A DNA stretch of 9,202 nucleotides from Chloroflexota bacterium (GTDB taxonomy: Bacteria; Chloroflexota; UBA6077; CF-72). Positions 116 through 9,202 of the stretch are shown piece after piece. The notes beneath the pieces were generated by a model that did no database searches, was not told the DNA's origin, and saw only the letters and a program-made list of their open reading frames with translations. The stretch spans positions 1 through 9,202 of the forward strand of contig JAFAPL010000752.1 in assembly GCA_019247135.1 (NCBI GenBank). Direction: 5' to 3'. The position numbers and the translations under genes were made by a program. Numbering within the stretch: position 1 is the first letter of the stretch; the number at the start of each line of letters is the position of its first letter.

Positions 116-246
116 TAGTCTCGCACGTCGCGCGCGTTATTCTGTGCTCATATTCGTCGAGCGAGAGCCGCCTGCCCCGGGTAGGGTGTGACAACGGCGA
201 CTTGCCAGCATCGACTTCACTGAATGATCCACGACTCACGACTGCT
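116..246. promoter_or_regulatory. Divergent intergenic region between hemW and aspS, probable two-way promoter region
   Basis: About 130 bp separate two outward-reading genes, so both promoters should lie here. Most of it is GC-rich, with one A/T-richer island at about 136-157 (GTTATTCTGTGCTCATATTC). On the plus strand TATTCT (138-143) is a 4/6 match to a -10 box, but I see no convincing -35 box at the right distance. On the minus strand the same island offers GAATAT-like and AGAATA-like hexamers. I see no T-box (tRNA-sensing leader), no riboswitch-like structure and no clear operator palindrome. The promoter role is inferred from gene orientation rather than from a strong motif. Confidence 0.4.
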
Positions 247-2022
247 ATGAAACGCTCCATGATGTGCGGCGAAGTCCGCGCCGCGCACGTCGACCAATCT
301 GTCACCCTGCAAGGCTGGGTGCACACCGTGCGCGATCACGGCGGCCTGATCTTCATCGACCTGCGCGATCGCTCCGGATTGGTCCAGGTGCTGATCAACC
401 CGTCCAGCGCACCTGAAGCGCACGCGGTCGCCTCCGAGGTCCGCGATGAGTTCGTCGTCGAGGTCTGCGGCATCGTTCAGCGCCGCCCAGCCGGTAGTGA
501 GAACCCGCGCATCGGCACCGGCGAAATCGAAGTCCATGCGGAAAGCATCGAGGTGCTGAACCCGAGCCTGCCCTTGCCGTTCCAGGTCGCCGAGGACACG
601 CCCGTCGACGAGCGCTTGCGGTTGCAGTATCGCTATCTGGACCTGCGCCGAACGCGCATGACACGCAACATCGTGTTCCGCCATCGGGTGATCAAGTACA
701 TCCGCGACTTCATGGACGCGGCCGGCTTCATCGAGGTGGAAACGCCGATTCTCGCCAACCCGACGCCCGAGGGTGCGCGCGACTTTCTCGTGCCCAGCCG
801 CCTGCACCAGGGCAGCTTCTATGCGTTGCCGCAAAGCCCGCAGCAATACAAGCAGCTCTGCATGGTCGCGGGCATGGATCGCTATTTTCAGATTGCGCGG
901 TGCTTCCGCGACGAAGACCTGCGCGCGAATCGCGCCGTCGAGTTCACCCAGCTCGATCTCGAGATGTCGTTCGTCGAGCCAGAGGACGTGTTCGCGGTCT
1001 GCGAAGATCTGTTCAGCGGTCTGACCGAATCGCTCACGGACAAACGGGTGATGAGAAGGCCCTGGCCGCGCATCTCGTGGCAGGAAGCCATGGACCGCTA
1101 CGGCTCCGACAAGCCGGATCTTCGCTACGAGCTGCCAATCGTCGACGTCTCTGAGATCGCGGGCGCAACCGAGTTTCAGGTGTTCCGCGGGACGGTGGAG
1201 TCGGGCGGTGTGGTCCGTGCGCTGCGAGCGCCAGGCGCTGGTGGCGTGACCCGCCGACAGGTGGACGAGCTGACGGAAATAGCGAAGTCCGTGGGCGCGC
1301 GCGGCCTGGCGTGGGCTGCACTCGGCGATGAGCTCCGATCTTCGTTCGCCCGCTTTCTCACCGAGGGTCAACTGAATGCCCTCTCGAGCCGCCTCGAAGC
1401 GCAACCGGGCGATCTCGTGCTGCTGGTCGCGGACAAGTTGCCGGTGGCTCGTGCGACGATGGGTCGACTACGAAGCGAAATGGCAGTCCGTCTGGGCCTG
1501 GTCCCCAGAGACGTGGTCGCGTGGGCGTTCGTCACCGAGTTTCCCTGGTTCGAGCGCGACGAGCTGACCGGGCGGCTGACCTTCATGCACCACCCGTTCA
1601 CCATGCCTTACGAGCAAGACCTGCCGTTGCTGGGCACCGATCCACTCTGCGTTCGCGCCAGGGCGTACGACATCGTCGCCAACGGCGAAGAGCACGCCAG
1701 TGGCAGCATCCGCGTTCACCGCGCCGACATCCAGGCCAGGCTGTTCGAGCTGCTCGGCTACTCGCCCGAGCGAATCCAGTCCAACTTCGGACACATTCTC
1801 ACGGCCTTCCAGTATGGTGCGCCGCCCCACGGTGGCATCGCGCCTGGCCTGGACCGCATCATCGCGATGCTGCTCGACGAGGACAACATCCGCGAGGTCA
1901 TCCCCTATCCCAAGAACCAGAGCGCCCAGGACCTGATGATGAGCGCGCCCGCGCCGGTCGCGCCCGCACAGCTCGAAGAGCTGAACATCAGACTGGTCGA
2001 GCCGCCGCCTCAGGCGACTTGA
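247..2022 (+). CDS. aspS: Aspartate--tRNA ligase (AspRS), probably the non-discriminating Asp/Asn type
   Basis: A class II aminoacyl-tRNA synthetase of 591 aa, normal length for bacterial AspRS, that attaches aspartate to tRNA in the cytoplasm. The OB-fold anticodon domain spans about residues 1-110 (GWVHTVRDHGG at 23-33). The catalytic domain has the flipping loop TPEGARD (173-179), QSPQQYKQL with Lys202, motif 2 CFRDED (219-224), EFTQLD (232-237), and motif 3 GLDRI with Arg537. The bacterial insertion (GAD) domain lies between motifs 2 and 3. The start at ATG 247 is chosen because MKRSMMCGEV aligns with the usual MRTxYCGxL beginning; a TTG at 202 would add 15 unlikely residues. No Shine-Dalgarno sequence is clear. 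His31 and Gly83 match the residues linked to non-discriminating AspRS. Oddities are NRAVEFTQ where DRQPEFTQ is usual, and NGEEHASGS where NGxExGGGS is usual. ileS follows after 38 nt. Confidence 0.96.
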   Translation: MKRSMMCGEVRAAHVDQSVTLQGWVHTVRDHGGLIFIDLRDRSGLVQVLINPSSAPEAHAVASEVRDEFVVEVCGIVQRRPAGSENPRIGTGEIEVHAESIEVLNPSLPLPFQVAEDTPVDERLRLQYRYLDLRRTRMTRNIVFRHRVIKYIRDFMDAAGFIEVETPILANPTPEGARDFLVPSRLHQGSFYALPQSPQQYKQLCMVAGMDRYFQIARCFRDEDLRANRAVEFTQLDLEMSFVEPEDVFAVCEDLFSGLTESLTDKRVMRRPWPRISWQEAMDRYGSDKPDLRYELPIVDVSEIAGATEFQVFRGTVESGGVVRALRAPGAGGVTRRQVDELTEIAKSVGARGLAWAALGDELRSSFARFLTEGQLNALSSRLEAQPGDLVLLVADKLPVARATMGRLRSEMAVRLGLVPRDVVAWAFVTEFPWFERDELTGRLTFMHHPFTMPYEQDLPLLGTDPLCVRARAYDIVANGEEHASGSIRVHRADIQARLFELLGYSPERIQSNFGHILTAFQYGAPPHGGIAPGLDRIIAMLLDEDNIREVIPYPKNQSAQDLMMSAPAPVAPAQLEELNIRLVEPPPQAT

Positions 2023-2060: not shown

Positions 2061-5000
2061 ATGTTTCAACCTGTCCCCGACAAGCCCGATTTCCCGTCCC
2101 TCGAACGCCGCATCCTCGATTTCTGGGACGAAACGCAGGCATTTGAGGTCCTGCGCGCCAGGCTAGCCACATCGGAGAAGCAGTTCTCGTTCATCGACGG
2201 GCCGATCACGGCCAACGGCGCAATGGGCGTCCATCACGCGTGGGGACGCACGTACAAGGACCTGTACCTGCGCTACAAGGCGATGACCGGGCACAACTTG
2301 CGCTGGCAGAACGGTTTCGACTGCCAGGGGCTGTGGGTCGAGGTCGAGGCTGAGAAAGACCTGGGCTTCTCCACGAAGCGCGACATCGAACGCTACGGAG
2401 TGGCCGAGTTCGTCCAGTACTGCAAGAACCGAGTTTTGAAGTTCGCTCGATTGATCACCGAGCAAAGCATCCGCCTCGGTATGTGGATGGACTGGGCTGA
2501 CTCGTACTACACGATGTCGGAGGCCAACAACTTCACCATCTGGCGCGTCATCAAGACGTGTCAGGAGCGGGGCTGGCTCTACAGGGGCCACGACGTCATG
2601 CCGTGGTGTCCGCGCTGCGGCACGGGGATCAGCAACATGGAGATCGAGACCGAGGGCTACGCCGAGGTCACCCACCTGAGTCTGTACGTGAAGCTGCCTC
2701 TTCTGGACCGCCCCGGCGAAAGCCTCCTTGTCTGGACGACGACTCCCTGGACGCTGAGCGCGAACGTTGCTGCCGCCGTTCACCCCGAGTTGACGTACGC
2801 ACGCGCGAAAAAGGGCGACCAGACCGTCATCCTCGCCGAACCGCTGGTGAACGGCGTGCTCGGACCAGGCTGGGACGTGGTGCAGCACTTGAGGGGTGAA
2901 GAGCTCGTGGGCTGGCGCTACGCAGGCCCGTTCGACGAGCTGCCGGCGCAGAAGGGCGTCGAGCACCGGGTCATCCCGTGGGACGAGGTCAGCCAGGACG
3001 AAGGCATGGGCATCGTCCATATCGCCCCCGGCTGCGGCGAAGAAGACTTTCAGTTGGGCAAAGAGTTTGGTTTGCCTGCGATCGCGCCCCTCGACGAGAG
3101 CGGCATCTACGTCGATGGCTTCGGTTGGCTCACGGGCAAGAGCGTCAATGAAGTCGGCGCGCTGATCGCCGACGACCTGGAACAGAAGCACGTGTTGCTC
3201 AAACGGCAGCAGTACGCGCATCGATATCCGCATTGCTGGCGCTGCGGCACCGAGCTCGTGTTCAGACTTGTCGACGAGTGGTTCATCAGCGTGGCCGAGC
3301 TACGCCAGATGCTCATCGACATCACGCGTCAGATCCGCTGGATCCCCGACTTCGGCCTGGAGCGCGAGCTCGACTGGCTGCGGAACATGCACGACTGGAT
3401 GATCTCGAAGAAGCGCTACTGGGGCCTCGCCTTGCCGATCTGGTTTTGCGAGGACTGTCAGAGCTTCGATGTGATCGGCAGCCGCGAAGAGCTACAGGAG
3501 CGAGCCGTCGAGGGCTGGGGCGAATTCGAAGGGCATACCCCCCATCGACCCTGGATCGATCGGGTGAAGATCGCCTGCGGGACATGCGGCAAACACATCA
3601 GCCGAATCCCGGACGTCGGAAATCCGTGGCTGGACGCTGGCATCGTTCCCTTCTCGACACTCGATTACGACCACGATCCGCAACATTGGCGAAAGTGGTT
3701 TCCTGCCGACTTCATCACCGAGAGCTTTCCGGGGCAGTACCGCAACTGGTTCTATTCGCTGCTCGTCATGAGCGCGGTCCTGGAGAACAAGCCGCCGTTC
3801 ATGTCGGTGCTCGGCTACGGCACCCTGCGCGGTGAAGATGGCCGACCGATGCACAAGAGCTGGGGTAACGCCATCGCGTTCGACGAAGCCGCCGACCGCG
3901 CCGGGGCGGATGTCATGCGCTGGGTGTTCTCGTTGCACAACCCCGCCGCGCCGAACCTGAACTTCGGCTGGAAACTGACGGAGGAAACTAAGCGGCGTCT
4001 TCTGAAGATCTGGGAGAGCTACAAGTTCTTCGTGTTGTACGCCAGCCTCGAACAGTGGCGTCCTGGCTCGGCGCCGGCGCTGCTCGAGCGGTCCGAGCTG
4101 GATCGCTGGCTGGCCTCGCGGTTGAACACGCTCGTTGGCTTTGTGCGCGAGCGTCTCGACGATGTCGATGCGATGAACGCCGCTCGGGCGATCGAAGATT
4201 TTGTGGAAGAGCTGAGTAACTGGTACATCCGCCGCAGCCGCGCGCGCTTCCAGGTACCGGGTGCGAACGCCGATCCCGCCGCGATGGCTACGCTGTACGA
4301 CGCGCTCACAACTCTGACGCGCCTGTTGGCTCCGTTCCTGCCGTTTCTGAGCGAAGAGCTTTTCCAGAACCTGGTTCGCGGCGTGGACGCGACTGCCCCA
4401 ACCAGCGTGCACCACACAGACTATCCCGTGGTACAGCCCGAAGTGCAGGACGCTGATCTCGAACGTGTGATGGCCTGGACGCGCCAGGTCGCCAGCCTTG
4501 GCAACGCCGCCCGCAAAGGCGCAGGTATTCGCTTACGTCAACCGCTACTCACGCTGCGGGTATCTGGCGGCTCGACGTTCGATGCCCTTCCCGAGTGGGC
4601 GTCTGCTTTGCTCCGAGACGAGCTCAACGTCAAGCGCGTCGAGTACGCGCGCGAGCTGAGTGAAGCTGTCCGCCCGCGTGCCGAAGCCAATCCCAAGCTG
4701 CTCGGTCCGAAGTACGGCAAAGACTATCCGCGCATTCGGGCCGCGCTCCAGGCAGGCGATTTCTCCGTCCTCGACGATCGGCGTGTACGCGTCCTCGACT
4801 GGACCCTCGAACCCGACGAAGTCTCCATTTCGCTCGAGCCCGCGCCCGGTTTTGCCGCCGTGGCCGACGCTGGAATTCTGGTTGTGCTCGACACGAATCT
4901 CACGCCCGAGCTCATTGCGGAGGGCCGTGCGCGCGAGGTCGTGCGGTTGATCCAGGACGCCCGAAAACAGGCCGGTTTCGAGGTATCGGACCGCATCACG

Positions 5001-5192
5001 ATCCGCTACACCGCCGCCGATGGCATAGCCCAGGCGTTCCAGCGTCACGCCGACTACATCCAGCGCGAAACATTGGCCACGCGCCTCGAGCCAGGCCTGG
5101 ACTCTGCCTCTGAGCCCGAGTGGCACCGCGCAGCGGACCAGATCGACGGTCACCCCGTTGTGGTGGCCGTCCAGCGCAGTCGCTCCGCATGA
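2061..5192 (+). CDS. ileS: Isoleucine--tRNA ligase, IleRS2 type with altered GVHH signature motif
   Basis: A 1043-aa class I synthetase charging tRNA-Ile. The catalytic Rossmann fold begins about residue 40. The HIGH motif is replaced by GVHH (56-59) and KMSKS by PMHKS (596-600). The CP1 editing domain looks functional: WTTTPWTL (225-232) is the Thr-rich loop, and His320 and Asp329 align with E. coli His333 and Asp342. Two paired CxxC sites suggest zinc: C183/C186 with C392/C395, and C463/C466 with C506/C509. After the anticodon-binding helices (about 675-800) comes a C-terminal region (about 850-1040, with LTPELIAEGRAREVVRLIQD at 947-966) resembling the DUF5915 domain of IleRS2, in place of the IleRS1 C-terminal zinc finger. 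Other class-conserved spots are also changed: GFDCQGLW (85-92) and NPWLDAG (521-527). ATG 2061 is the first start after aspS and has no Shine-Dalgarno sequence. lspA follows 58 nt later, a common ileS neighbour. A divergent Val/Leu-type enzyme is less likely, given the editing-site residues and the context. Confidence 0.93.
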   Translation: MFQPVPDKPDFPSLERRILDFWDETQAFEVLRARLATSEKQFSFIDGPITANGAMGVHHAWGRTYKDLYLRYKAMTGHNLRWQNGFDCQGLWVEVEAEKDLGFSTKRDIERYGVAEFVQYCKNRVLKFARLITEQSIRLGMWMDWADSYYTMSEANNFTIWRVIKTCQERGWLYRGHDVMPWCPRCGTGISNMEIETEGYAEVTHLSLYVKLPLLDRPGESLLVWTTTPWTLSANVAAAVHPELTYARAKKGDQTVILAEPLVNGVLGPGWDVVQHLRGEELVGWRYAGPFDELPAQKGVEHRVIPWDEVSQDEGMGIVHIAPGCGEEDFQLGKEFGLPAIAPLDESGIYVDGFGWLTGKSVNEVGALIADDLEQKHVLLKRQQYAHRYPHCWRCGTELVFRLVDEWFISVAELRQMLIDITRQIRWIPDFGLERELDWLRNMHDWMISKKRYWGLALPIWFCEDCQSFDVIGSREELQERAVEGWGEFEGHTPHRPWIDRVKIACGTCGKHISRIPDVGNPWLDAGIVPFSTLDYDHDPQHWRKWFPADFITESFPGQYRNWFYSLLVMSAVLENKPPFMSVLGYGTLRGEDGRPMHKSWGNAIAFDEAADRAGADVMRWVFSLHNPAAPNLNFGWKLTEETKRRLLKIWESYKFFVLYASLEQWRPGSAPALLERSELDRWLASRLNTLVGFVRERLDDVDAMNAARAIEDFVEELSNWYIRRSRARFQVPGANADPAAMATLYDALTTLTRLLAPFLPFLSEELFQNLVRGVDATAPTSVHHTDYPVVQPEVQDADLERVMAWTRQVASLGNAARKGAGIRLRQPLLTLRVSGGSTFDALPEWASALLRDELNVKRVEYARELSEAVRPRAEANPKLLGPKYGKDYPRIRAALQAGDFSVLDDRRVRVLDWTLEPDEVSISLEPAPGFAAVADAGILVVLDTNLTPELIAEGRAREVVRLIQDARKQAGFEVSDRITIRYTAADGIAQAFQRHADYIQRETLATRLEPGLDSASEPEWHRAADQIDGHPVVVAVQRSRSA

Positions 5193-5250: not shown

Positions 5251-5805
5251 ATGAGCAGCGACGCACTGCCTGTCCCCGTGGACGCGCCACGCGAGCGGGC
5301 CTTTCCCATTCGCGGCCTGTTGTTCCTCGGCCTGGCCGTGCTGGTCGTGGTGGCCGACCAGATCACCAAACGTCTTGCCGAAGACCGCCTGTATCGCAGC
5401 GGCGCGCGCTCCGTCCCTATTCCGGGCACTGCGGACCTCTTGAGGCTCACCTACGTCGAGAATCGCGGGGCCGCCTTCGGCCTGCTGCAAGACCAGACCG
5501 CGTTCTTCGTCTTCGTCGGCATCATCGTCATCGGAGTCATCGCCGCCAGCTACCGCTACCTGCCACGCTCCGGGTTCATCCTCCACCTGGCACTCGGCCT
5601 GCAGCTCGGCGGGGCCATCGGCAATCTCATCGACCGTGTCCGTCAGGGCTACGTGGTCGACTTCGTCGACTTCGGCTATCGCTCGAACTGGTGGCCTGTG
5701 TTCAACGTCGCCGACTCCGCCATCGTGGTCGGCGTCGCGCTGCTTGCTCTAACGGCTCTGAGGTCCACCGAGGAGCCCGCCTCGACCGGAGATGCCAGCG
5801 GCTGA
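5251..5805 (+). CDS. lspA: Lipoprotein signal peptidase (signal peptidase II)
   Basis: A 184-aa inner-membrane aspartyl protease that cleaves the signal peptide from diacylglyceryl-modified prolipoproteins, acting after Lgt. Four hydrophobic segments are visible at about residues 20-36, 64-98 (interrupted), 108-127 and 150-170. The family boxes are present: DQITK (36-40), VENRGAAFGLL (69-79), GGAIGNLIDRV (120-130) with catalytic Asp128, VVDFVDF (135-141), and FNVADSAI (151-158) with catalytic Asp155. The 20-residue N-terminal leader before the first membrane segment is proline- and charge-rich and poorly conserved in the family. ATG 5251 is the only sensible in-frame start; another ATG at 5223 is out of frame. 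The stop lies inside the next gene (14-nt overlap), suggesting translational coupling. LspA is the target of globomycin and myxovirescin. Confidence 0.96.
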   Translation: MSSDALPVPVDAPRERAFPIRGLLFLGLAVLVVVADQITKRLAEDRLYRSGARSVPIPGTADLLRLTYVENRGAAFGLLQDQTAFFVFVGIIVIGVIAASYRYLPRSGFILHLALGLQLGGAIGNLIDRVRQGYVVDFVDFGYRSNWWPVFNVADSAIVVGVALLALTALRSTEEPASTGDASG

Positions 5806-6775
5806 GGCGAGCGAGCGACGGCGTTTACGAGCCGTCACTCGCGACGCGCCGACCGGCCGCATCGTGGTGGTCCCGCCGTTCGCCGCTGGCGATCGGCTGG
5901 ACGGCTTTCTCATGCGCCACGGTGGCGAGCCAGACCGCTCCCGCTCCGAATGGCAGCGCCTGATCGGCCTCGAAGCTGTCCGCCTGAACGGGCAGCCATC
6001 CAAGCCAAGCCAGCGCGTCGCGACGGGCGACCGGGTACTGGTGGCTCACGCACCGCGTCAGCTCGATCTTCCACCAGACGAGGACGTGCCGTTCAACGTC
6101 ATCTATGAGGACGCGGCCATGCTCGTGGTCGACAAACCCGCCGGCCTCGTGGTGCATCCGGCGCCCGGAAACGAGCACGGCACGCTGGTCAACGGCCTGC
6201 TGGCGCGCTTTCCGGAGTTGCGCGATGACTCGGGCGATCTGCGGCCTGGCATCGTGCACCGCCTCGACAAGGACACATCAGGGTTGATGGTGGTCGGCCG
6301 GACGCTCGCCGCGACGGCGAACCTGCAGCGTCAGATGCAGGCACGCACAACGGAAAAGCGCTACCTCCTGCTGGTGCGCGGCAACATCGATGAGGACGAA
6401 GGTCTGATCGACGCGCCGATCGCACGCGACCTGCGCAATCGTCAGCGCATGTCGGTCCGCGCGGGCGGTCGTTCAGCCCAGACCCGCTTTTCTGTACGTG
6501 AGCGTTTGGGTGAGTACACGCTGGTCGAAGCGCTGTTGTTGACGGGTAGAACGCATCAACTGCGCGTACACTTCGCTTCGATTGGACGACCCGTCGCCGG
6601 TGACGACACCTACGGCGCCGGTCGTCGACCGCCAGCACTGGCACGCCAGTTTGTCCACTCGTGGAAGCTGCGCCTCGAGAGTCCTGCCGACGGTGTCGAG
6701 CACACGTTTCAGGCAGATCTTCCGCCCGAGTTGGCGGATGTTCTGGAGCGCCTCCGTCGACGCGCTAAGGTATAG
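5792..6775 (+). CDS. rluD: RluA/RluD-family pseudouridine synthase
   Basis: A 327-aa RNA pseudouridine synthase, probably acting on 23S rRNA. An S4-like RNA-binding domain covers about residues 27-85 (DRLDGFL at 34-40, VRLNGQPSKPSQRVATGDRV at 63-82). The catalytic domain starts near YEDAAMLVVDKPAGLVVHPA (105-124). It holds the active-site signature RPGIVHRLDKDTSGL (151-165) with catalytic Asp159, TEKRYLLLVRG (187-197) and the C-terminal LLLTGRTHQLRVHF (248-261). With both the S4 domain and HRLDKDTSG, it matches the RluD/YlyB group usually found beside lspA. The exact target uridines cannot be read from sequence. ATG 5792 overlaps lspA by 14 nt and has GGAG abutting the start, too close for a good ribosome binding site. 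GTG codons near residues 25-26 are alternative starts, so the first ~24 residues are uncertain. Confidence 0.93.
   Translation: MPAAEASERRRLRAVTRDAPTGRIVVVPPFAAGDRLDGFLMRHGGEPDRSRSEWQRLIGLEAVRLNGQPSKPSQRVATGDRVLVAHAPRQLDLPPDEDVPFNVIYEDAAMLVVDKPAGLVVHPAPGNEHGTLVNGLLARFPELRDDSGDLRPGIVHRLDKDTSGLMVVGRTLAATANLQRQMQARTTEKRYLLLVRGNIDEDEGLIDAPIARDLRNRQRMSVRAGGRSAQTRFSVRERLGEYTLVEALLLTGRTHQLRVHFASIGRPVAGDDTYGAGRRPPALARQFVHSWKLRLESPADGVEHTFQADLPPELADVLERLRRRAKV
6767..6770 (+). promoter_or_regulatory. Ribosome binding site (AAGG) supporting the GTG start of gltX
   Basis: AAGG lies 7 nt before the GTG at 6778, inside the last codons of the preceding pseudouridine synthase gene. It is the best-placed Shine-Dalgarno-like element I see for any gene here. 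It supports GTG 6778 as the gltX start, which also places the family motif APSPTGDPHIGT at the expected residues 8-19. Confidence 0.5.
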
Positions 6776-6777
6776 GC

Positions 6778-8223
6778 GTGGTCGTTCGCACCAGGACGGC
6801 GCCGTCGCCGACTGGCGACCCGCACATCGGCACCGCCTATCGCGCGCTCTTTGACTCCGTCTTCGCGCGTCATGAAGGCGGTCAGTACCTGCTGCGCATC
6901 GAAGACACAGACCGCGCGCGCTACGTCGACACGAGCGAGGACCAGATTTTCGAGACGCTGCGCTGGCTCAATATCGACTGGGATGAAGGCCCGGATAAGC
7001 CGGGCCCACACGCGCCGTATCGTCAGTCAGAGCGTCTGCCGCTGTATCGCGAGCACGCCGAACGTCTCGTCGAATCAGGCAATGCGTATTACTGCTGGTG
7101 TTCGCCACAACGTCTCGAAGACGTTCGTGCCGAGCAGCAGAAGCGTAAGCAACCGCCTCGCTACGACCGGTTCTGCCTCGGCAAATCCGAGGAGCAGCGT
7201 GCGAAGGAGCCCGGCTTCCAGACGCCGCCGGTCGTTCGACTCTTCGTTCCCGACGACGTTGCCCTCGAATTCGACGACGTCATCCGAGGGCGGATCAGTG
7301 CGCCACGGCCGAACGATCCGGTGCTTCTGAAATCCGACGGCTTCCCCACGTACCACCTCGCCGTCGTGGTCGACGATCACGCGATGGAGATCACGCACGT
7401 CACGCGTGGCGAAGAGTGGATCAGCTCGACCCCCATCCACCTCGAGCTGTACAGGGCATTCGGTTGGGAGCCGCCCAGGTTCGCGCACTTTCCCCTTTTG
7501 AGGAACCCTGATGGCTCCAAGATCAGCAAACGCAAGAACCCGGCAGCACGTCTGCTGTGGTTCGTGGAAGAGGGCTTTCTGCCCGAGGCGGTGCTGAATT
7601 ATCTGGCCCTGATGGGCTGGAGCATGCCCGACGAGCGCGAGATTTTTTCGTACCAGGAGATGGTGGAGAACTTCAACTGGTCCCGCTTCAGCACCGGCGG
7701 TCCTGTCTTCGACGTGACCAAGCTGGAGTGGATGAACAACCAGTACCTCCAGCGCATGAGTGACGACGAATTTCTGGCTCGCATCGATTCGTTCTTGCCT
7801 GGTCCCGGTCAGCGCGACGGGATGCGCGTCATGGCCCCGCATCTGAAAGAGCGCCTGCACCGCTTGTGCGAGGTGCGCGAGCAGGTCGAGTTCCTGTTTA
7901 CCGACGAGCTCGATCTCGACCGCGACCTGCTGGTCAAACAAGGTAACGAGGCGCTGCCCGCGGTCGAGGCGCTGCGCATGGCCGAGACCGTGCTGCGCGA
8001 GGTCGATCCATACTCCGAAAGCAACATCAATCGCGCGTTGGCGGAGGCAGTGAACGCACGAAACATCGCGAAAAAAGGTGCGTTCTACATGCCAATTCGC
8101 GTCGCGATCTCGGCCAGGACGCGTACGCCGCCGTTGACGCCCATGCTTGCCGCGCTCGGCAAACAGCGCACCCTGCGCCGCCTCCGCGACGCGATCGATC
8201 TCATCTCGCCAGGCCTGGCCTGA
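6778..8223 (+). CDS. gltX: Glutamate--tRNA ligase (GluRS)
   Basis: A 481-aa class I synthetase that loads glutamate onto tRNA-Glu, of normal bacterial length. The N-terminal Rossmann fold holds APSPTGDPHIGT (8-19, the HIGH-type motif in its HIGT form), RIEDTD (40-45) and WDEGPD (68-73). HVTRGEEWISSTP (207-219) and KISKR (248-252, the KMSKS equivalent) complete the active site. NYLALMGWS and the helical C-terminal anticodon-binding region follow, ending in LGKQRTLRRLRDAIDLI. A possible zinc knuckle has Cys106, Cys108 and Cys133, but glycine sits where E. coli has its fourth ligand, a histidine. The GTG start has an AAGG ribosome binding site and begins 2 nt after the upstream stop, so translation is probably coupled. 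Whether it is discriminating (Glu only) or also charges tRNA-Gln cannot be decided here. GluQ-RS is unlikely, because the full anticodon domain is present. Confidence 0.96.
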   Translation: MVVRTRTAPSPTGDPHIGTAYRALFDSVFARHEGGQYLLRIEDTDRARYVDTSEDQIFETLRWLNIDWDEGPDKPGPHAPYRQSERLPLYREHAERLVESGNAYYCWCSPQRLEDVRAEQQKRKQPPRYDRFCLGKSEEQRAKEPGFQTPPVVRLFVPDDVALEFDDVIRGRISAPRPNDPVLLKSDGFPTYHLAVVVDDHAMEITHVTRGEEWISSTPIHLELYRAFGWEPPRFAHFPLLRNPDGSKISKRKNPAARLLWFVEEGFLPEAVLNYLALMGWSMPDEREIFSYQEMVENFNWSRFSTGGPVFDVTKLEWMNNQYLQRMSDDEFLARIDSFLPGPGQRDGMRVMAPHLKERLHRLCEVREQVEFLFTDELDLDRDLLVKQGNEALPAVEALRMAETVLREVDPYSESNINRALAEAVNARNIAKKGAFYMPIRVAISARTRTPPLTPMLAALGKQRTLRRLRDAIDLISPGLA

Positions 8224-8270: not shown

Positions 8271-8831
8271 TTGATCTTGAAGCTTCTCCTCGCCGCCGTC
8301 GTCGTCGCTGTGGCGGCCATCGGCTTCATGGTCCGCACTGCCGCAACGCCTGCTGGCCAGCAGCCCGCCGCGACCGCACCTGCAGCAACGCCCGCCGCGA
8401 CGGCCATCGCGGCCCGGCCCGCGTCCGGCGACCAGACCGTCGTCATCACCGAAGCGATGCTCGACGACGCGCTCACCCGGCAGCTGGTGGGGCATCCGCT
8501 CGGCAGCACGCCCATGGGTCCGGCCACGCTCCAGCGTGTCCAGACGCACCTCGCTAATGGCCAGATCCAGGCGAACGGTGACGCGTTGGTTGGCGGCTCG
8601 ACGGTGCCCGTATCGATGTCGAGCCGAGTGGACGTCGCGAACGGGAAACCAATCGTGACGGTTCAGGACGCCCGCGCGGCCGGGATGCCCGTTCCAGACT
8701 CGACGAAGAATTCCGTCCAGCGCGTGATGCAGTCAGAGCTCGACCAGCAGGTGCAGATGGACCAGCTTGACATCAAGTCGATCTCCGTCTCAGACGGCAG
8801 ACTGGTCATCCTCGGCACGCCCCAGTCGTGA
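8271..8831 (+). CDS. Membrane-anchored or secreted protein of unknown function, possibly LmeA/DUF2993-like
   Basis: The 186-residue product starts with a hydrophobic segment (about 2-20) that could be a signal peptide or membrane anchor. I see no lipobox cysteine. An Ala/Pro/Thr-rich low-complexity linker (about 24-52) follows, then a compact domain (about 55-186). That domain has alternating polar and hydrophobic strands: VVITEAMLDDAL (57-68), NGQIQANGDALVGGSTVPV, VDVANGKPIVTVQDARAAGMPVP, and a final SISVSDGRLVILG. The pattern of strands, an amphipathic helix and a closing 'DGrLvIlG' strand resembles LmeA/DUF2993-type lipid-binding periplasmic proteins, but I recognise no diagnostic motif, so this is only a suggestion. 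The start is TTG 8271, or TTG 8277; there is no Shine-Dalgarno sequence, and no ATG or GTG lies between the gltX stop and the hydrophobic segment. It follows gltX by 47 nt and is probably co-transcribed. Confidence 0.7.
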   Translation: MILKLLLAAVVVAVAAIGFMVRTAATPAGQQPAATAPAATPAATAIAARPASGDQTVVITEAMLDDALTRQLVGHPLGSTPMGPATLQRVQTHLANGQIQANGDALVGGSTVPVSMSSRVDVANGKPIVTVQDARAAGMPVPDSTKNSVQRVMQSELDQQVQMDQLDIKSISVSDGRLVILGTPQS

Positions 8832-8834
8832 GCA

Positions 8835-8852
8835 GGCAGCCGCTAGGCTGCT
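8835..8852. terminator. Possible hairpin terminator between convergent genes
   Basis: GGCAGCC (8835-8841), loop GCTA, and GGCTGCT (8846-8852) form a stem of six Watson-Crick pairs plus one G-U pair. It sits in the 11-nt gap between two convergent genes and includes the stop codon of the minus-strand gene. Neither side has a U-run, so it is not a canonical intrinsic terminator. Position makes a bidirectional transcription end plausible. Confidence 0.3.
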
Positions 8853-9202
8853 CCAAGGTGCTCGCGGAGAAACTCCACCGCCATCGGATACGCGACCAGC
8901 TTGTTCTTGAGCTTTGCGATCTGGTGGCCCTCGTCCTCCAGCCGCAGAAACTCGACCGTCCGCCCGAGTGATCTCAGCTGACCCACCATCTGTTCCGTCT
9001 CGGAGATCGGTACTCGCGGGTCATTGGCGCCGTGAATCACCACTAATGGCGCCCTGATCCGGTCGACCTTGTTGATGGGTGAGATCGACACGAGAAAATC
9101 GCGGTCGTTTTCGAGCGATCCGTATTCCGCTTCGCGCAGGTGCCGCCGCCACGGGCCGGTGTTTTCGAGGAACGTGACGAAGTTGGCGATGCCGACCAGG
9201 TC
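8843..9202 (-). CDS. S9 family (prolyl-oligopeptidase-type) peptidase, C-terminal fragment (gene continues past the right edge)
   Basis: The minus strand is open from the right edge (9202) to a TAG at 8845-8843, giving 119 residues of the C-terminal part of an alpha/beta-hydrolase peptidase. It begins DLVGIANFVTFLENTGPW and continues through REAEYGSLENDRDFL to SISPINKVDRIRAPLVVIHG. Two catalytic-triad members are visible: Asp in HGANDPRVP (codon 9022-9020) and His in DEGHQI (codon 8926-8924). The nucleophilic Ser (GxSxGG region) lies beyond the window. This pattern is typical of S9C/acylaminoacyl-peptidase and dipeptidyl-peptidase IV-like enzymes that cleave short peptides. A GTG at 9091 is an internal valine, not a start, because conserved family sequence continues upstream of it. 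The gene converges with the preceding operon and is probably unrelated to it. Confidence 0.9.
   Translation of the reverse strand, partial: DLVGIANFVTFLENTGPWRRHLREAEYGSLENDRDFLVSISPINKVDRIRAPLVVIHGANDPRVPISETEQMVGQLRSLGRTVEFLRLEDEGHQIAKLKNKLVAYPMAVEFLREHLGAA

Follow-up and report, generated by a model that had tools for sequence, protein, structure and literature searches.

A type-2-like isoleucyl-tRNA synthetase of a Chloroflexota bacterium with a swapped HIGH motif and further rewritten synthetic-site motifs

Results

The ileS gene and its neighbours

The window, by which we mean the whole stretch of 9,202 nucleotides of Chloroflexota bacterium contig JAFAPL010000752.1 that was analysed, holds an aspS-ileS-lspA-rluD-gltX cluster (Table 1), in which AspRS, LspA, the RluA-family pseudouridine synthase and GluRS each score above their own family cut-off; a preliminary description of the DNA had placed ileS in an operon with lspA, rluD and two other synthetases, and the family models bear this cluster out. 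Its call of the ileS product as an isoleucyl-tRNA synthetase (IleRS) holds as well, with 709.8 bits against TIGR00392 (isoleucine--tRNA ligase family) for a cut-off of 621.4, and the frame begins with ATG and is open throughout. Pfam recognised PF00133, PF08264 and PF19302 in the protein, and none of its four Pfam matches was a zinc-finger domain. PF19302 we take to be a marker of the IleRS2-type C-terminal part, which on the strength of this match, and with no zinc-finger match beside it, is present in the window IleRS. When an AlphaFold model of the enzyme (mean pLDDT 88.2) was used in a fold search, the top four matches were P. megaterium IleRS2 structures (TM 0.75-0.82), and P. megaterium IleRS2 and its GVHH mutant (8c8v, 8c8w) are the best match to the full protein, in both sequence and fold, among solved structures.

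The remainder of the window, 3' of gltX, contains a 186-aa frame with a TTG start (8271-8831, forward strand), which matched neither NCBIfam nor Pfam within the limits applied and whose N-terminus resembles, by eye, a signal or membrane anchor. The end of another gene leaves the window on the reverse strand (8843-9202) and matches the C-terminal part of Peptidase_S9 (prolyl oligopeptidase family).

Table 1. Features of the window, with residues numbered in the window IleRS; clade B and the 24 reference sequences are defined in the text.
Feature	Residues	Position	Strand	Support
aspS, aspartyl-tRNA synthetase, upstream neighbour		202..2022	+	NF001750, 795.6 bits
ileS, isoleucyl-tRNA synthetase, type-2-like branch with rewritten synthetic-site motifs	1043 aa	2061..5192	+	ORF, TIGR00392, Pfam, tree, model
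Ile in place of the second Pro of GPP (GPI)	49	2205..2207	+	Pro in 24/24 references, 0/174 clade B
HIGH-motif position, GVHH, G/AxHH swap	56-59	2226..2237	+	codons GGC GTC CAT CAC
GFDCQGLW, versus GWDxHGLP	85-92	2313..2336	+	H89 and P92 in 24/24 references; Q89 in 174/174, W92 in 171/174 clade B
TTTPWT, threonine-rich peptide of the editing domain, unchanged	226-231	2736..2753	+	T226, T227, T228, W230 and T231 in 174/174 clade B, P229 in 173/174
Lys in place of Arg (ISKKR versus ISRxR)	450	3408..3410	+	Arg in 24/24 references, 21/174 clade B
NPWLDA, versus DxWFDS	521-526	3621..3638	+	D521 in 24/24 references, 20/174 clade B; S526 in 23/24 and 0/174
GQYRN, versus DQxRG, Gln559 kept	558-562	3732..3746	+	G562 in 23/24 references, 0/174 clade B; Q559 in 174/174
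PMHKS, versus KMSKS: first Lys absent, Ser to His, second Lys kept	596-600	3846..3860	+	
Phe in place of Pro after the KMSKS loop	607	3879..3881	+	Pro in 24/24 references, 0/174 clade B
C-terminal DUF5915 (PF19302) domain	850-1014	4608..5102	+	129.2 bits
lspA, signal peptidase II		5251..5805	+	TIGR00077, 109 bits, cut-off 73.95
rluD-like RluA-family pseudouridine synthase		5792..6775	+	TIGR00005, 263.6 bits, cut-off 192.7
gltX, glutamyl-tRNA synthetase		6778..8223	+	TIGR00464, 468.2 bits

A swapped HIGH motif shared throughout clade B

Class I synthetases are marked by two signature motifs, HIGH and KMSKS. At the HIGH position the window IleRS reads FIDGPITANGAMGVHHAWGRTYKDL, in which GVHH aligns gap-free to the HVGH of T. 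thermophilus and of P. megaterium IleRS2, so motif positions 1 and 3 are swapped; codons and alignment thus uphold the earlier reading of residues 56-59 as a motif with its first and third positions exchanged. With Gly in first place and His in third and fourth, the enzyme falls within the definition of G/AxHH (Gly or Ala at 1, His at 3 and 4), a motif that the same description had rightly treated as known and that is published (Brkic et al. 2023, PMC10485003).

To follow the motif we used an alignment of 241 distinct IleRS taken from loci, together with the window enzyme and T. thermophilus (291 loci, giving 245 distinct proteins and, once same-core copies were merged, 241), from which five ValRS rows under the score limit were dropped; two further rows, in which the HGLP segment is missing, were excluded. 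Clade B is defined here as the 174 rows with Gln-Gly-Leu at residues 89-91 (80 from a similarity scan, 93 from genome searches and the window itself), 80 of the 174 having been selected by likeness to the window enzyme, and branch N as the 67 rows with HGLP, including E. coli IleRS1 and T. thermophilus.

Every clade B row is [GA]xHH (174/174): the first letter is Gly in 170 rows and Ala in 4, the third and fourth are His throughout, and HxGH was found in 0/174 rows; the loci concerned are labelled Chloroflexota, Latescibacterota, KSB1, Eisenbacteria, Neomarinimicrobiota, Armatimonadota and others. The 80 nearest relatives, being the best 80 of 430 confirmed candidates in one genome-collection scan and mostly Chloroflexota, all carry [GA]xHH, which rules out a sequencing error or a chance motif, and so do, among the top 120 proteins from a large protein search, all 116 in which the pattern was readable (it was unreadable in 4). 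A GxHH enzyme in a core operon had earlier been put forward as worth following up, but the counts do not support its being unusual: 98 of the 102 IleRS genes in a draw of Chloroflexota genomes are G/AxHH and only 4 are HxGH (52 genes are of the window type and 50 of the other type), and we dropped novelty on this point, G/AxHH being both published and ordinary in Chloroflexota. The text of PMC10485003 already contains the motif, the consequence predicted for it and its occurrence in a housekeeping enzyme that is the sole IleRS.

Clade B is a sister branch of characterised IleRS2

GxHH IleRS fall into two sorts, one with KMSKS and GWDxHGLP, the other (clade B) with xMHKS, GFDCQGLW and, in place of the WFDSG region, NPWLDAG. 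K596 and S598 are present in all branch N rows that have the segment, and HGLP in all 67; among the 60 branch N rows with His at residue 58, 59 keep K596, S598 and H89, and one is without the 596-598 segment. The swap therefore does not require the other motif changes, which in the aligned rows were never seen without it.

A tree was built from 530 columns, motif segments excluded, with 20 clade B, 19 other IleRS2, 5 IleRS1 and 3 ValRS rows. The 20 clade B rows are monophyletic (support 100/99), as are the 19 other IleRS2 (99/99), and these 39 rows stand together against IleRS1 and ValRS with support 97/96, for which Treekit warns that two long branches, those of IleRS1 and ValRS, come together. 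The alignment and tree that had been proposed as a check thus place the window IleRS with IleRS2, against IleRS1, on columns outside the motifs; its closest companions are L001 and L003 (AVHH) and L002 (GVHH). T. thermophilus and two Actinomycetota GxHH enzymes lie in branch N. At least 7 changes of the G/AxHH swap are required on the tree and it is present in all clade B rows, so that it comes and goes in branch N.

By its C-terminal domain and the tree clade B belongs with IleRS2, and branch N groups with it against IleRS1. The two differ by the KMSKS and HGLP of branch N, its HYP[FYW] and its Trp at the column of PmIleRS2 W130, D. radiodurans and S. griseus being outside the alignment and the tree sample. 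The distinguishing IleRS2 signature HYPFE (PMC4861432) is replaced in the window enzyme by DYDHD (HYP[FYW] in 0/174 clade B rows versus 56/67 in branch N), and the W130 column holds Ile132 (Trp in 0/174 versus 65/67); with neither feature present, we describe clade B as a sister branch of characterised IleRS2 and not as a typical member. Of the IleRS1 signatures NKIL and Tyr59 (E. coli numbering; PMC4861432), the first is GRTY in the window enzyme and the second is Thr in 174/174 clade B rows. An IleRS1 with a swapped motif, which would be new, was rejected on the C-terminal domain, the tree and these missing signatures.

Rewritten signature motifs beside conserved isoleucine and editing sites

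Beyond what had been reported for this DNA, further signature motifs are changed in the same enzyme (Table 1). As references for a column test we used 24 IleRS (19 from branch N and 5 IleRS1, with no archaeal or eukaryotic row), counting a column between 10 and 660 as near-universal where at least 95% of these references share one letter, which gave 86 columns, and as changed where less than 20% of clade B rows retain the usual letter. By this measure 14 of the 86 near-universal columns are changed in clade B, 13/40 within six motif segments versus 1/46 outside them (column 398; Fisher p 0.00018), the segments being class I signature regions that were drawn after the differences had been seen. 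Each sampled clade B member combines the swap with altered letters at most of these 14 columns. The 14 changes are partly incomplete, the usual letter being kept by 17 to 21 of the 174 rows at columns 398, 450, 457 and 521. A reciprocal control with 20 clade B rows, in which each group was scored on columns universal in the other two, placed 12/13 changes in motif segments for clade B, 1/5 for branch N and 2/10 for IleRS1.

The count of Q89 in 174/174 rows is circular, clade B having been defined by Gln-Gly-Leu at 89-91; residue 92 is Trp in 171/174 and His in 3. In the loop, residue 596 is Lys in 0/174 rows (Glu in 78, Pro in 42, Asp in 29 and others in 25), residue 598 is His in 172/174 and Ser in 2, and residue 599 is Lys in 171/174 and Arg in 3. 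Three clade B loci (L155, L156 and L159) read MHRS, so that the second KMSKS lysine is also replaced, by Arg, and two others (L184 and L188) read LMSKS, with Ser at the third loop position and yet without the first lysine. The adenine-stacking position (Phe586 in PmIleRS1, His582 in PmIleRS2, read here as Thr588) was dropped from consideration, as it varies in both branches.

P48, D87, W523, Q559 and W563 of the window IleRS, which we take to correspond to five residues lining the isoleucine pocket in T. thermophilus, are each present in 174/174 clade B rows. D329, presumably an editing-site residue together with T226-T228, is likewise kept in all 174. As judged from the aligned sequences, the amino-acid and editing sides are conserved where checked and the signature motifs, including the ATP-handling ones, are rewritten; the location of these motifs suggests that the rewritten residues would act on ATP.

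Copy number of IleRS in related genomes

The Chloroflexota draw comprised 101 genomes of the phylum of Ktedonospora formicarum, whose own genome (G007) was its centre and is included (completeness of at least 90% was requested, values not given). One IleRS match (E <= 1e-120) was found in 98 of the 101, two in 2 and none in 1, and the genomes with two, G007 and G100, have one from each GxHH branch (L081 and L093; L144 and L152). A single IleRS above the family cut-off was present in 11 of the 12 genomes of chosen relatives, with two in the twelfth, and a single match in 11/11 other genomes; another draw, of mostly the same genomes as the Chloroflexota one, gave one match in 58/61 and none in 3. 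A draw in the phylum of G005 (E <= 1e-120) gave one match in 35/43, two in 1 (G140) and none in 7, and further draws gave one IleRS in 39/41 (none in 2) and in 8/8. The seven genomes of the G005 phylum in which no IleRS was matched, G125-G127, G132, G137, G150 and G156, are either incomplete or have more divergent enzymes.

For each of the three closest loci (L001, L002 and L003) the genome has one IleRS above the family cut-off, and the aspS-ileS-lspA-rluD-gltX order is conserved in L001 and L002, the L003 locus ending early. From this single IleRS and this synteny, the window ileS, which the preliminary description had taken for the housekeeping gene, is probably the only copy as well as the housekeeping one.

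Mupirocin and the published G/AxHH enzymes

G/AxHH was found in 86 of 379 IleRS, none of them IleRS1, and is described as a mupirocin hyper-resistance motif compatible with a housekeeping role (PMC10485003). In the text of that work a mupirocin Ki of 6.6 mM is given for the D. radiodurans ALHH IleRS2, and exchange of the motif in both directions moved Ki down or up by factors of as much as roughly a thousand. In the structure of a GVHH mutant the third His of GXHH sits where the first His of the canonical motif would be, in a model it clashes with mupirocin, and antibiotic selection is proposed for the motif (PMC10485003). The characterised G/AxHH IleRS2 (D. radiodurans ALHH, S. griseus; PMC10485003, PMC4861432) share with the window enzyme the first/third swap of HIGH and are often the sole IleRS. 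The P. megaterium GVHH mutant has the same four letters as the window IleRS, whereas P. megaterium IleRS2 is 34% identical to it over the fold alignment and has KMSKS, HGLP and, in the wild type, HVGH.

The enzymes measured were those of D. radiodurans, T. thermophilus and P. megaterium, with S. griseus cited (PMC10485003), so that, as far as can be told, hyper-resistance was measured in enzymes outside clade B, and mupirocin hyper-resistance of the window IleRS is a plausible extrapolation from the other branch. A literature search, with subscription papers, figures and supplements outside its coverage, found no published measurement on a clade B enzyme and nothing on the additional motif changes of the clade. 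In our reading of the alignment the mupirocin-binding Asn70 of PmIleRS1 is the N of NKIL and hence Gly62 of the window enzyme; this column is Gly in 171/174 clade B rows and Asn in 3, and the mupirocin-binding Asn is absent from other IleRS2 too.

A minor IleRS2 clade of few, early-branching sequences from Planctomycetota and Chloroflexi, with GXHH at its ancestor (node 747), has been described (PMC10485003), and clade B is probably this clade, going by the text of the paper and not by its tree. The other changed motifs go unmentioned in that text, and its figure 2b gives the KMSKS of key nodes, where the loop change may show. Clade B is apparently an uncharacterised active-site variant.

Discussion

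We think it likely that the window ileS is the housekeeping IleRS of this Chloroflexota bacterium and is part of a large branch sister to characterised IleRS2, in which poor sensitivity to mupirocin would be a by-product of an old active-site architecture. Such an enzyme would activate isoleucine normally, His58 at the third motif position taking over the role of the canonical first His, by analogy with the published GVHH mutant structure, and the loop xMH598K599S replacing KMSKS with one lysine and a histidine, of which Lys599 may suffice, perhaps aided by His598. The bulky His58 and Gly62 (Asn in IleRS1) would together make for poor sensitivity to mupirocin, a resistance that would come with the architecture and not as an acquired trait. 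A bolder reading, which we offer tentatively and on balance doubt, is that the clade B enzymes make up a third functional form of IleRS, whose ATP site would be built from His58 of the HIGH helix, His598 of the signature loop and one lysine, replacing a HIGH with His first and a KMSKS with two lysines, and with Gln89 and Trp92 re-packing the adenylate side; the swap would then be ancestral and structural rather than a response to antibiotics, and resistance again a by-product.

That GxHH was installed or retained by selection from mupirocin-like antibiotics and confers specific hyper-resistance, the latter as the preliminary description predicted, seems to us unlikely for this clade. G/AxHH has been tied to mM Ki by two-way exchange of the motif, and such selection has been proposed (PMC10485003), but the swap is invariant in the clade B sample across several phyla (HxGH in 0/174), and it is accompanied there by motif changes that it does not need, as the 59 of 60 branch N rows with His58 that retain K596, S598 and H89 demonstrate. 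We regard it as quite improbable that the window IleRS is a second, resistance or specialised copy with a canonical ileS elsewhere in the genome: pairs of IleRS do occur (in 2/101 Chloroflexota genomes, one enzyme from each GxHH branch, and as two matches in 1/43 genomes of another phylum), but the cluster with aspS, lspA, rluD and gltX is conserved in L001 and L002, and the L001, L002 and L003 genomes each have a single IleRS above cut-off. A decayed or repurposed paralogue without isoleucine activation, to which the changed KMSKS and HGLP might point given that the first KMSKS lysine, H89 and P92 (each 24/24 in the references) are replaced, is scarcely credible, since almost all of the genomes searched have no other IleRS match, its full frame is open, its isoleucine-pocket and editing residues are invariant and its second KMSKS lysine is kept in 171/174 rows (Arg in 3).

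As a probable housekeeping enzyme of this branch, the window IleRS stands for a widespread and apparently sole IleRS in which HIGH is swapped, KMSKS is without its first lysine in every sampled member and HGLP and WFDSG are rewritten, so that clade B offers a natural test of what the activation chemistry of class I synthetases requires. The clade also separates two questions that are joined in the literature: did GxHH arise to resist mupirocin, or is it an old feature that some lineages tolerate? Neither the motif nor its occurrence in a housekeeping enzyme is new, and the point of interest lies in the wider rewriting of the synthetic site and in the assumption that findings made on the other branch apply to this one.

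The acquired resistance enzymes MupA and MupB are similar to the window IleRS over their full length. It scores 614.6 and 574.9 bits with the MupA and MupB models, below their cut-offs of 1900; 0 of 211 matching plasmid records were 60% or more identical to it, and plasmid mupA reached at most 33.6% among the 30 listed of these 211 records. On these identities and scores an acquired resistance gene was rejected. One plasmid ileS, from Rhodococcus opacus (L294, 571-3726), has a natural GTHH and adjoins genes for a phosphopantetheine-binding protein and a flavin oxidoreductase; it is possibly the self-resistance gene of a biosynthetic cluster. A further variant at the HIGH motif was seen in an IleRS1 of Methylobacterium bullatum (L298), which reads HIGT, with Thr replacing the fourth-position His.
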